Source: a virus. From it: DNA of 64,000 bases. Of this stretch, positions 39,499-43,809 are shown one piece after another. The translations under genes were made by a program, and so were the position numbers. Below the pieces are notes generated by a model that saw only the letters and a list, made by a program, of their open reading frames with translations, made no database searches and had not been told where the DNA came from. The stretch lies in the IMG/VR virus record IMGVR_UViG_3300021185_003853, positions 1 through 64,000 of that record; one strand, given 5' to 3'. Within the stretch, counting starts at the first letter, position 1; each line of letters begins with the position of its first letter.

Positions 39499-39530
39499 GG
39501 CGGGGTCAAGGATGGCCTCGCCTTTTTTTT
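39499..39530 (+). terminator. Rho-independent terminator between convergent genes
   Basis: GGCGGGG (39499-39505) pairs with CCTCGCC (39516-39522, one G-T), then eight T. The minus-strand gene ends in the same T-run (TTA 39529-39531). Confidence 0.88.
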
Positions 39531-41694
39531 AAGCAGTGGCAGTTGCTACTAAAGCACCATTTGCTGGTGTTGCGGCCGCAAAGTTGTTTGTCGTGCTTTT
39601 ATTAATGACAGTATTATCGCCGCCTTTATTTACATTACCGCCACTATTAACAACCTGAACATTGCTTGTATCATTTGACCCTGTAGGACCGCCTCTTAAT
39701 CTTGTGCTTGCTTGAGTAGCAACACTTCCTTGACTTGTGCCGAGTATTTCATTCACCTTGCCCATTGCGATTGCTAATCCGTCAAGGTCTATATCAGGGT
39801 TATCAATCAAACCTTTTCCGAAATCAATCTCTGGGCCGTCAAAGAATCCTTCTCCTACCTTACCGCCTTTAGTCAACCCTTGAAGTAGCGGGATTGATTG
39901 ACCAAGTTTTGTTGCCATTCCTTCAAAATCAAGATCATTTGAATTGAACTTGATGCCAGAGAACTTAGTCATTGCTACAGCAATTCGTTCCAGCGCATTT
40001 GCTCCCTTTGTCAATCCCTCAGAGTTATCAGCAATGCCTTGAATTTGTGTGAACATATTATCTTCAGGATTTTTGCCGCCTGACAAGAAGTTTGCAATTG
40101 CTATGCCTACACCTTTAAATGCTGCACCAAATTGTGCTGACGAAAATGCTGATAATCCGTTTGAAATCCCTGTCATTGTGTTCTGAAACGCAGCACCATC
40201 AATTGCATTAATTGTTGTAAAATCAATTGATTCAATAGGCGCCAACATTTCCTTTAGACCCTCGAATGGGCCTTTTGCTTGCTGCGCTTCCTTACCTGTG
40301 AAGAATGAAACAATCATATTCTTCATGTTAGTCAAGCCTTCAGCGACTTTAGTAGCGCCTAATGATATTAGCATGGTAGCCATACCAGCACCTAAACCTG
40401 CCATACCTAACCCTAGGTTTGCAAAGTTGCTTCCGTCAATACCGTTGAATCCTTTTAACCCATCAGCGATATTAATCATGATACTTTTAAGGCCGGAACC
40501 GTCAGCGCCAACCAAACTTGCAACGCCGCCGCCCATTGCTATGCCCGATATGAAGCCGCCGAGACCTAAACCGATTGCAGTCGCACCTACTGCTGCTAAT
40601 CCTGCTACTGCAACGCCGCCAGGAACAGCGCCAAATATTGCCCCCGCTGCGAATAATCCCGTCAATCCTAACAATTGCCCGTCTGAGAATGCACTCAACC
40701 CCTCAGCAATATTTGTTGCAACTGTTTTAAATCCTGCGCCATCAAATCCCGCAAGTTCTGCTAATCCTCCGCCTGCTGCGATACCTCCAACGAATCCGCC
40801 AATACCTGCACCGATAGCAGTCATACCAACTGCCATTTTAAACGCACCACCTAACCCGCCAAATGCAGCGAACAATCCGCCAGCGGCAAGCATTCCACCT
40901 AATACTTTTGCAGTATCACCAGACATTGAACTGGCAAATGCCTCTAATCCTTTACCGACATTTTCTGCTTGAGTGGGAAAGTTAGATAAGTCAAGATTCA
41001 TAGCATCTATTGCTGTACTGGATGCTGCCAATCCACCAATAAACCCACCTATGCCTAAACCTATAGCAGTCATACCAACTGCTGCTAATCCTGATCTTTT
41101 CGCACCACCAAAGGCGCCAAACAGTGCACCAGTACCGAGCAATCCTGCAAGAGCTGCTCCGTTACTTAAATTAAATTTAGATAGACCCGTAGCAAGATTG
41201 CCCATTAATGAAACAAGGTGTTCGCCCGTTCCTAATTTACGTGCAGCTGCATCAGCGACTGCTAATCCTCCAATGAATCCGCCTATACCTGCACCAAGTG
41301 CTGCAAGACCCACACCTGCGCCAGCAAGTTTCATGAATAATCCTAAGCCGCCGCCGATACCCTTTTCGACTCCACGAGAAACGCCGCCACGGATTGTTGT
41401 GCCTTCTGAATCTGCAAGTCCTCTTACAGGCTTTTCTTTTGTAGAGAAAAACTTTGCAAAGAAACCTTTCTGTGCTGTCTCGCCTAATTTTTCATTTCTT
41501 ACAGCATCTTTTCTTTGCTCTGCCTGATTAGACATGAAGTTAAATAGCGTACTGTGAATAGAGTTTAAATGCGTGTTCGTTTGATCCAATGATTTGACCA
41601 TTGAATCTAATGCAGGTGTCAACGAGTTAAGCGTTTCCTTTGATAAGGTTACAACTTGTGGTGTGGGGCGTTTTTTAGGCGGTTTTTGTGCCAT
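39529..41694 (-). CDS. Probable tail tape-measure protein
   Basis: 721 residues. N-terminal helical part with LSKETLNSLTPALDSMVKSL; then four to five copies of a Gly/Ala-rich membrane-like unit (for example AVGMTAIGLGIGGFIGGLAA, AVGMTAIGAGIGGFVGGIAA, AVGATAIGLGLGGFISGIAM) about 100 residues apart; C-terminus Asn/Thr/Ala-rich. Length-repeat design, hydrophobic patches and position after a tube-type and chaperone-type gene fit a tape measure, the role of gp29 in T4 (590 aa). Alternative: a membrane-inserting tail protein, functions that overlap. Last gene of the minus-strand late operon. Confidence 0.72.
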   Translation of the reverse strand: MAQKPPKKRPTPQVVTLSKETLNSLTPALDSMVKSLDQTNTHLNSIHSTLFNFMSNQAEQRKDAVRNEKLGETAQKGFFAKFFSTKEKPVRGLADSEGTTIRGGVSRGVEKGIGGGLGLFMKLAGAGVGLAALGAGIGGFIGGLAVADAAARKLGTGEHLVSLMGNLATGLSKFNLSNGAALAGLLGTGALFGAFGGAKRSGLAAVGMTAIGLGIGGFIGGLAASSTAIDAMNLDLSNFPTQAENVGKGLEAFASSMSGDTAKVLGGMLAAGGLFAAFGGLGGAFKMAVGMTAIGAGIGGFVGGIAAGGGLAELAGFDGAGFKTVATNIAEGLSAFSDGQLLGLTGLFAAGAIFGAVPGGVAVAGLAAVGATAIGLGLGGFISGIAMGGGVASLVGADGSGLKSIMINIADGLKGFNGIDGSNFANLGLGMAGLGAGMATMLISLGATKVAEGLTNMKNMIVSFFTGKEAQQAKGPFEGLKEMLAPIESIDFTTINAIDGAAFQNTMTGISNGLSAFSSAQFGAAFKGVGIAIANFLSGGKNPEDNMFTQIQGIADNSEGLTKGANALERIAVAMTKFSGIKFNSNDLDFEGMATKLGQSIPLLQGLTKGGKVGEGFFDGPEIDFGKGLIDNPDIDLDGLAIAMGKVNEILGTSQGSVATQASTRLRGGPTGSNDTSNVQVVNSGGNVNKGGDNTVINKSTTNNFAAATPANGALVATATA

Positions 41695-41698
41695 TTAC

Positions 41699-41815
41699 TT
41701 AGTCCTTAAATTTACTATCGATCCAGCATTTACCATAGTAAAGGATACCTAGCCAGACGGTGAACAATACACCGTCAAGGTATGATAATGAATTCCACGC
41801 TTCAACAGGATCCAT
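41699..41815 (-). CDS. Very small membrane protein, 38 aa
   Basis: ATG 41815-41813, TAA 41701-41699, between two real genes with 1-4 bp gaps. Begins MDPVEAWNSLSYLDGV, with one hydrophobic helix (GVLFTVWLGILYYG) and a KFKD end. Position and spacing support it; function unknown. Confidence 0.6.
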   Translation of the reverse strand: MDPVEAWNSLSYLDGVLFTVWLGILYYGKCWIDSKFKD

Positions 41816-41816
41816 T

Positions 41817-42137
41817 TTATTTCTTCTTCATTGCTTGTGTGCCGAAGAAAGCAGCAACGATACCAGCAACAGCAACAAAGTATGTTGGTGCCATATCGCC
41901 TAATGTTTCTTGTGCTTGATCTAATCCTGCCATAGAAGCGCAAACAACTGCGAATGGATACAATAGCATACCTCCTAATGAAAACCATGCCATGTTACGC
42001 TGTGCATCACGCATAGCATCAGCATCTTCTAACTCTTTGCGCTTAAACTCAAGATACATTTGCTCTTCTGCGTCACTTACCTTACCATCGCCGTTTGAAT
42101 CAGCGGGATGATATACTTTAACTTGTTCGTCAGACAT
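41817..42137 (-). CDS. EF-hand-containing two-helix membrane protein
   Basis: 106 residues. Residues 12-24 hold a canonical EF-hand loop (DSNGDGKVSDAEE), then a charged helix (YLEFKRKELEDADAMRDAQ) and two membrane helices (WFSLGGMLLYPFAVVCASMA; YFVAVAGIVAAFFGTQA). An odd combination for a tail operon: Ca-binding plus membrane. Late promoter 120 bp upstream. I recall similar unnamed genes next to the tape measure in marine phages. Confidence 0.7.
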   Translation of the reverse strand: MSDEQVKVYHPADSNGDGKVSDAEEQMYLEFKRKELEDADAMRDAQRNMAWFSLGGMLLYPFAVVCASMAGLDQAQETLGDMAPTYFVAVAGIVAAFFGTQAMKKK

Positions 42138-42146
42138 TACATCTCC

Positions 42147-42323
42147 TTACATTGCGTTCTTTTCTTGTTGTTTAGAATCTTCAATAAACTGTAATAACAT
42201 ATCAAGGTAAATATCCCTCTCATATGGTATTATGTTTTCTATTTCGCTTATCTGATATTTATAATGTTGAGCCAGTGCAAACACGTTTTGATAATATAAT
42301 GCCAACGTGTTATGGACCAACAT
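42147..42323 (-). CDS. Small tail-chaperone-type protein, probably made as a -1 frameshift extension
   Basis: 58 residues; ATG 42323-42321 overlaps the stop of the upstream gene (TAATG). Content: LALYYQNVFALAQHYKYQIS, then EIENIIPYERDIYLDMLLQF, a pattern shared with second halves of phage tail assembly chaperones (E-x-x-IP-[WY]-ERD-IY). A run of seven T directly before the upstream stop would let ribosomes slip -1 into this frame. It may also be started independently at its own ATG. Lies upstream of the tape-measure gene as expected for a G/GT-type chaperone. Confidence 0.7.
   Translation of the reverse strand: MLVHNTLALYYQNVFALAQHYKYQISEIENIIPYERDIYLDMLLQFIEDSKQQEKNAM
42256..42263 (-). promoter_or_regulatory. 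T4-type late promoter, minus strand
   Basis: TATAAATA on the minus strand inside the 58-aa gene, 119 bp upstream of the EF-hand protein gene. Confidence 0.65.
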
Positions 42324-43033
42324 TAAGTAAAAAAAGTGTCCATCCCCTCCATATTGAAGGTTTTGTCTTTTCCAGTATTATCTGTATAATTTACAGAGTA
42401 TTTCATTTTGGGACTTGTAGCAAAAAACTGTTGTAGCTGTTCCACTGTTGATGTTGTAAATTGCTCTACAAATTCTTCAATCTCCTTAGGAGAGAAGTCG
42501 CTAAAGCTATATACCTCATCAGTAGTGCTGTCAACTAATGTTTCGATACATGCTACCATCGTATTAAACAATATATTCGCCTCTGATTCACCTTCAACGT
42601 CTTGCAACCCAGCAAGTTCATTGATAGTAGGATATCTCATCATCATAAAGTATTGATCGTTTAGTTCAACTTTTTTTACGTGATCTGGGTCACGAGTTAT
42701 TTGTATTTCGTCAATATCAACCTTTAATTCTACTTCTTCTTCTGTGTCAGGATCTTGAATCGTAAATTTAATTTCATTGTTGACTGACTTTGCTCTGACC
42801 TGCAACATAATGTATTCAAGGTCAAATACTGACAGTGTATCAACGTCAACATCTTGACAACAATTGTTAACAATTTGTTTAACTGCAAGAACAATTTGTT
42901 CTATATCACCCGACTCACGAGCGATTAAAAGAACTTTTTCCTCTTTAACAGTGAAAGGTCTAAAGGTAATCTTTTTTTCCGTAGAAGGAACAGTGAGTTC
43001 GAATAACGGTTGATCAATCTTGGGTAATCCCAT
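42323..43033 (-). CDS. 26: gp26-like baseplate hub / tail assembly chaperone
   Basis: 236 residues. Begins GLPKIDQPLFELTVPSTEKK, then ITFRPFTVKEEKVLLIARES, LEYIMLQVRAKSVNNEIKF, and YPTINELAGLQD, the T4_baseplate family that contains gp26-like proteins of cyanophages. The position between a tube-type gene and the tape measure, plus a slippery site before the stop, suggest that it is the functional equivalent of lambda gpG. Both readings (hub protein gp26, or chaperone) are given; the family assignment is firm, the role less so. Confidence 0.8.
   Translation of the reverse strand: MGLPKIDQPLFELTVPSTEKKITFRPFTVKEEKVLLIARESGDIEQIVLAVKQIVNNCCQDVDVDTLSVFDLEYIMLQVRAKSVNNEIKFTIQDPDTEEEVELKVDIDEIQITRDPDHVKKVELNDQYFMMMRYPTINELAGLQDVEGESEANILFNTMVACIETLVDSTTDEVYSFSDFSPKEIEEFVEQFTTSTVEQLQQFFATSPKMKYSVNYTDNTGKDKTFNMEGMDTFFT
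42329..42335 (-). other. Candidate -1 frameshift slippery site, T TTT TTT
   Basis: On the minus strand the gene 26-like frame reads ACT TTT TTT ACT TAA. The seven T (42335-42329) give X-XXY-YYZ in the right phase. After a -1 slip, reading continues TAC TTA ATG and through the 58-aa frame, giving a fusion of about 295 residues. Confidence 0.6.
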
Positions 43034-43053: not shown

Positions 43054-43809
43054 TCAAAATGGAAGCGTGTCTATCAATCTTCCTACATTGTTTGTTTGCG
43101 TAATCAAATCCTGAATGCTGTTTGGCTTTCTTATCTGTTTAATTTGTTGTGCTACACTATTTATAGATGATAAGAAACCAAGTAACCCTGTCTTACTATT
43201 AAATCCTGATACAATGCCGTCATCTGCACCTTCAACGCTGAATGAATCATATGCAAAGTTAACAGTAATGGTCATAACCTCTGCGCCATTTTCCCATGCA
43301 ACCTGAACACCGCCTACTGATACTGGGAATGCGCCATTAAATTTGTAGTTGTATGTTATTTGTTCTTGGTGATACGAATAAACAACAACTTCTAATGTTG
43401 AACTATAATCATCATGATAATTAAATTCATACAACCCACGACCATCAACAGAGTTTAAAGGACCTGATCCGTTTCCGTGATTGAAAACACTTTGATTCCA
43501 TTGATGAAATAACTTCTTAATTGCAAAATTAGAATCGACCATAAACACTAAGGGAACTGTTCCGTTTTCCATTGCAGTTGCACGCTTTTGAGATACCCCA
43601 TGCCCCTGTGTTTTGATGTCTGTTACATTCAGTTCGAGGTCAGGCAATTGAACAGATCGACAAAAGAAAGGAATGTCTCTAATGTTCATACCTTCATTAC
43701 CAGCCGAACTCAATGAGGCGGGCAACGAGAATCGTGCGAGGAATAAATTATTAAGTGCAACTCCGTGACGGTTGATTGTTGCACTGAAATCTGCTACATT
43801 AAATGGCAT
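43054..43809 (-). CDS. 54: gp54-like baseplate tail-tube initiator (tube-fold protein)
   Basis: 251 residues. Has the tube-protein fold signature of gp19/gp54: NNLFLARFSLP, FFCRSVQLPDLELNV, GTVPLVFMVDSNFAIKKLFHQW, a GAFPVSVGGVQVAWENGAEV turn and MTITVNFAYDSFSV. A C-terminal helical extension (INSVAQQIKQIRKPNSIQDL) is beyond gp19 length (163) and resembles gp54. Together with gp48 at 45370 it would cap the baseplate for tube polymerisation. Alternative: the major tube protein, less likely by length. Confidence 0.75.
   Translation of the reverse strand: MPFNVADFSATINRHGVALNNLFLARFSLPASLSSAGNEGMNIRDIPFFCRSVQLPDLELNVTDIKTQGHGVSQKRATAMENGTVPLVFMVDSNFAIKKLFHQWNQSVFNHGNGSGPLNSVDGRGLYEFNYHDDYSSTLEVVVYSYHQEQITYNYKFNGAFPVSVGGVQVAWENGAEVMTITVNFAYDSFSVEGADDGIVSGFNSKTGLLGFLSSINSVAQQIKQIRKPNSIQDLITQTNNVGRLIDTLPF
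43158..43165 (-). promoter_or_regulatory. T4-type late promoter, minus strand
   Basis: TATAAATA inside the 3' end of the gp54-like gene, 125 bp before the gp26-like start. Could be chance, but spacing is similar to the other internal late promoters. Confidence 0.5.

Follow-up and report, generated by a model that had tools for sequence, protein, structure and literature searches.

The window analysed here, a 64,000-nucleotide stretch of DNA from a marine T4-like phage, carries on its minus strand a gp26-like gene whose end overlaps a gp51-like frame, and both lie between a tail-tube-like gene and a candidate tape measure gene. The features discussed in this report are as follows.

43054-43809, minus strand: tail-tube-like protein, upstream neighbour (gp54 / tube initiator type; phrog_45 E 1.4e-38, PF23849 E 2.8e-9)
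42323-43033, minus strand: gp26-like gene, predicted short chaperone form (TAC-N, lambda gpG-like role), 236 aa; PF12322, phrog_150
42344-42350, minus strand: Shine-Dalgarno-like GGAGGGG, 8 nt upstream of the heptamer; duplex energy -9.8 kcal/mol
42329-42335, minus strand: slippery heptamer T_TTT_TTT in the phase X_XXY_YYZ, conserved in relatives
42323-42325, minus strand: 0-frame stop TAA, one codon past the heptamer, overlapping the ATG of the -1 frame (TAATG)
42147-42329, minus strand: -1 frame extension, 60 aa, including the gp51-like 58-aa ORF at 42147-42323
42313-42322, minus strand: 5' arm of a 10-bp stem, starting 6 nt after the heptamer
42265-42274, minus strand: 3' arm of the stem, pairing with 42313-42322
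41817-42137, minus strand: 106-aa membrane-type protein with an EF-hand-like loop; ORF only, with an ORF of similar size at the same place in HTVC008M
41699-41815, minus strand: 38-aa hydrophobic ORF; ORF only
39529-41694, minus strand: 721-aa tape measure candidate, named from its position and from an HTVC008M counterpart annotated 'putative tail tape measure'

The 0-frame of the gp26-like gene ends at a junction that reads ACT TTT TTT ACT TAA TG on the minus strand, and the context of the slip site, 5' to 3', is TATGGAGGGGATGGACAC TTTTTTT ACT TAA TG. The original prediction described an in-phase T TTT TTT near this stop, from which a -1 slip would lead into a 58-aa frame with the motif IPYERDIY. 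Both elements were confirmed. The heptamer occupies positions 42335-42329 of the minus strand, and the -1 frame runs from its first codon, TAC at 42329, to a stop at 42147 with IPYERDIY inside. The conceptual fusion of the gp26-like protein with the -1 frame is 295 aa long, as claimed, and the junction peptide of the predicted fusion product is ...MDTFFYLMLVHN.... The 68 ORFs of at least 100 aa in the window (18,296 codons) hold three in-phase T_TTT_TTY sites, one of which, that of the gp26-like gene, lies within four codons of a stop.

The site was compared across untruncated loci outside the T-even type, drawn from IMG/VR relatives, named phages and further scans and including the window's own copy (L081), 172 loci in total. 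The original prediction turned on a slippery site being kept in related T4-like phages, and the site is present wherever the two-frame arrangement exists: an in-phase T_TTT_TTT, T_TTT_TTC or T_TTT_TTG stands near the stop in 171 of the 172 loci, and all six additional named phages carry the site. The sole exception, L178, has its first stop inside gp26 and so shows no such pattern there. All 80 IMG/VR relatives, which are 45-100% identical, have the slippery site, as do all 21 named phages of non-T-even type. Fifteen of these named phages include Pelagibacter HTVC008M, Methylophilales Melnitz-3, Sinorhizobium phiN3 and phiM9, Delftia PhiW-14, Aeromonas Aeh1, Vibrio V05, Pseudomonas pf16 and Prochlorococcus P-SSM2. 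Ten gp26 genes of the T-even type, which serve as a natural negative control, have no slippery site. Retention of NNT TTT has a joint codon-usage probability of about 10^-37 over 67 representatives of below 70% identity, treated as independent although they are not entirely so. The last codon of the heptamer can be Leu TTG in place of Phe, which indicates that the bases are kept and not the protein. In addition, the -1 frame has no ATG near the junction in 94 of 168 loci and no ATG, GTG or TTG there in 60. Thus, it is hardly possible for gp51 to be a gene of its own in these 60 loci.

Two further elements flank the heptamer. Throughout the family, predicted pairing with the 16S tail is strongest 6-9 nt upstream of the heptamer, where the duplex energy has a mean of -6.6 kcal/mol against a background of -0.13 kcal/mol, and duplexes of -5 kcal/mol or stronger occur in 81% of the family and in 4% of the background. 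Synonymous permutation of the same codons weakens the element (-5.3 permuted, -6.7 real; paired t -6.3), so it is not merely a by-product of Glu-Gly codons. The family also shows a second, weaker Shine-Dalgarno-like signal (mean -3.1 kcal/mol), located 30-34 nt 5' of the heptamer.

Downstream of the heptamer, the window sequence folds with an energy of -14.7 kcal/mol, and the folding energy there has a z of -2.9 relative to synonymously permuted versions of the -1 frame, compared with -0.4 for the control. A stimulatory hairpin 3' of the site had been named in the original prediction as a feature to look for, and a stem-loop with compensatory base changes was found. An explicit test of column pairs was used in place of the RNAalifold consensus, which predicted no consensus pairs for the same alignment, probably because the inner region of the stem-loop varies. 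In the window's clade the stem corresponds to alignment columns 36-45 with 84-93, where 90.4% of cells are paired, and pairing drops to 27-42% when the arms are slid by 1-3 columns. The covariation score is 0.248 compared with 0.144 for shuffled alignments, and none of 500 shuffles reached the real score. For example, pair 38-91 is U-A in 26 sequences and C-G in 22, through Leu TTG/CTG and Gln CAA/CAG changes that are both silent, and pair 41-88 alternates among A-U, U-A and U-G.

A strong local hairpin is missing in about 19 of the 67 representatives. Among the loci with weak hairpins, a CCCTCTC after the stop is complementary to the upstream Shine-Dalgarno-like GAGGG (L084, L085, L118, L121, L127, L129, L159, L164 and L186). 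Over the 19 representatives this pairing has a mean z of -1.2 against synonymous permutation, and elsewhere it is -0.1. It is conceivable, though rather unlikely, that in HTVC008M-like lineages and relatives without the strong hairpin, a hairpin between the Shine-Dalgarno-like element and its complement, with the heptamer in the loop, forms a different stimulator that exchanges evolutionarily with the first type.

Profile searches place both frames in known T4 families. The gp26-like protein matches PF12322 ('T4 baseplate') with an E value of 4.1e-53 (180.7 bits, Pfam cut-off 24.5) and phrog_150 with 2e-60, and the -1 extension, the predicted C-terminal part of the long form (TAC-NC, lambda T-like role), matches the phrog_634 gp51 family with 5.9e-20. 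An HMM of the -1 extension matches the C-terminus of T4 gp51 (E 1.8e-6; decoys above 1). When an HMM of the conceptual fusions was used, T4 gp51 aligned over positions 23-279 of the 292 in the model, whereas T4 gp26 aligned over positions 15-235, ending at the slip codons. T4 gp51 itself matches PF12322 with its residues 1-201 and phrog_634 with its residues 147-246. These matches indicate that T4 gp51 is the long form in one ORF and T4 gp26 the short form. In Slopekvirus phiKp_23 a long gene and a short gene, both in frame, are arranged in tandem, which is consistent with gene duplication. An unrooted tree with several long branches separates T-even gp26 and gp51 from all frameshift types (98/97). 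One paper (PMC3004832) lists T4 gp51 as needed for assembly and as missing from the finished particle.

The AlphaFold2 model of the window gp26 has a pLDDT of 90. Its first approximately 90 residues match PDB 3fgx with a Z of 7.8 and the HK97 chaperone 2ob9 with a Z of 7.3 over 83 residues; Z values of 7-8 can arise by chance, but these two stand well clear of the next chain, at 2.6. Foldseek alone found no significant matches of the gp26 model in the PDB, a gp26 profile searched against PDB sequences found nothing relevant, and the HK97 chaperone was absent from the VIA-align list for a T4-type gp51 model. The long-form fold was taken from this natural in-frame gp51 and not from a conceptual fusion, and its extension is modelled as helical. 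Judging from the models, there is moderate confidence that the N-terminal fold of gp26 resembles that of the HK97 tail-assembly chaperone. The window gp26 differs from HK97 gp13 (PDB 2ob9) in having about 140 more residues, unmatched, beyond the shared predicted fold of about 84-94 N-terminal residues. The BFVD matches of the gp26 model include proteins of similar fold from Campylobacter CP220/CP21 and Bacillus SP-15 that bear the names baseplate hub or gp51-like. That the gp26-like family is a tail assembly chaperone, as had been proposed for this locus, is supported by the collinearity with T4 gp51 and by the fold, and the idea is already in the literature.

The gene order put forward for the locus (tube-like gene, the pair, two small membrane-type ORFs, tape measure candidate) is borne out. 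One qualification concerns the tube-like gene: it is probably a gp54-type tube initiator, because a candidate for gp19, the major tube protein, sits at 112423-112872 of the same record. The 106-aa protein (41817-42137, minus strand) has the EF-hand-like loop DSNGDGKVSDAEE and two hydrophobic stretches. For the tape measure candidate (39529-41694, minus strand), family searches gave no match above chance; a Gly/Ala-rich repeat, AAVGMTAIGLGIGGFIGGLA..., occurs in it about four times.

Three other explanations of the junction were weighed. In translational coupling, gp26 and gp51 are separate proteins and terminating ribosomes start gp51 at the overlapping ATG. An ATG does stand at or close to the junction in the window and in 74 of 168 loci, a GGAGGGG precedes the overlapping ATG by about 20 nt, and the TAATG overlap in the window permits a free 58-aa gp51 through reinitiation. 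However, the 60 loci described above keep the -1 frame without any start codon at the junction, the fixed T_TTT_TTN phase and the 3' stem are left unexplained, the spacing of the Shine-Dalgarno-like element suits a slip stimulator better than a start, and T4 gp51 has both parts in a single chain. Coupling is therefore regarded as quite improbable, and a separate gp51 made by reinitiation was rejected as the main route because so many relatives have no start codon.

In transcriptional slippage, RNA polymerase would stutter on the T7 run, so that a fraction of the mRNAs is frame-shifted. Many members have the T7 homopolymer, but at many other sites the run is just six T long, with a C or G after it (T_TTT_TTC, T_TTT_TTG), which is short for polymerase stutter, and the Shine-Dalgarno-like element and stem-loop at ribosomal spacing implicate the ribosome. 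This explanation is less probable still, and it was rejected as the main route because six-T sites are common. The current database names, baseplate hub and hub assembly catalyst, would fit two ordinary hub genes with a chance T-run, or one gene split by a sequencing error. That reading is contradicted by the comparison across genomes, in which the site is conserved in many divergent members with the codon probability given above, and by the architecture of T4 gp51; it is the most improbable of the three.

We therefore favour, at a probability of roughly 0.93, the reading that gp26 and gp51 here would be a single tail assembly chaperone, produced in two lengths by a -1 ribosomal slip. The site, its stimulators and the collinearity with T4 gp51 come from comparison, as does, at moderate strength, the fold; from these we infer slippage, its rate and the binding roles of the two forms. 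The majority of ribosomes would terminate at TAA and give the 236-aa short form, and a minority would slip one base back on U UUU UUU, continue in the gp51 frame and give the 295-aa long form. Pairing of GGAGGGG with 16S rRNA and the stem-loop 6 nt downstream would promote the slip, both holding the ribosome. If the roles are analogous to those of lambda gpG/gpGT, coating of the tape measure protein would fall to the short form, and the long form would use its extra helices to bring in tube subunits. T-even phages would instead make each form from its own in-frame gene, gp26 or gp51.

Several known systems bear on this mechanism. As with lambda gpG/gpGT and the equivalent genes of most long-tailed phages, the window has a -1 slip site near the end of the short gene and a chaperone pair sited between the tail tube and tape measure genes. 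There is no recognised sequence similarity to the lambda proteins, and the window has a T_TTT_TTN site flanked by the Shine-Dalgarno-like element and the stem-loop. T4 gp26/gp51 belong, like the window pair, to the family PF12322 and come as a short form and a long one that carries the same C-terminal extension, but they are separate in-frame genes without a slippery site, whereas the window pair would be joined by the slip. In the Pakpunavirus phage Adele (PMC12846349), from a different phage family, the short chaperone gene likewise ends at a poly-T (GTTTTT) -1 slip. A 2016 review described the G/T frameshift as conserved 'except T4' (PMC5009743). According to two later papers (PMC10885494 and PMC12846349), Vladimirov, Gautam and Davidson (Virology 2022;566:9-15) identified T4 gp26 and gp51 as tail assembly chaperones. 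The first of these, on PRFect, cites them for some T4-like phages having short and longer fused chaperone genes with no frameshift, and the second, from 2025, credits them with poly-T slippery sites in T4-like chaperone genes. Thus, by these accounts, the central idea is already published. Judged against the same accounts, and as far as checked, the covarying stem, the second frames without start codons and the family-wide survey are new.

T4-like phages beyond the T-even side (marine, rhizobial, Vibrio and some Aeromonas) would thus carry a G/GT-type frameshift with a full set of signals, as read from their sequences, and per this survey the arrangement as two separate genes is confined to the T-even side. 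In hundreds of genomes, gp51 should be relabelled as the C-terminal portion of one joined gene. The slip rate, and what it contributes to tail length, become testable in well-studied phages, for example Aeh1 and the KVP40 group.
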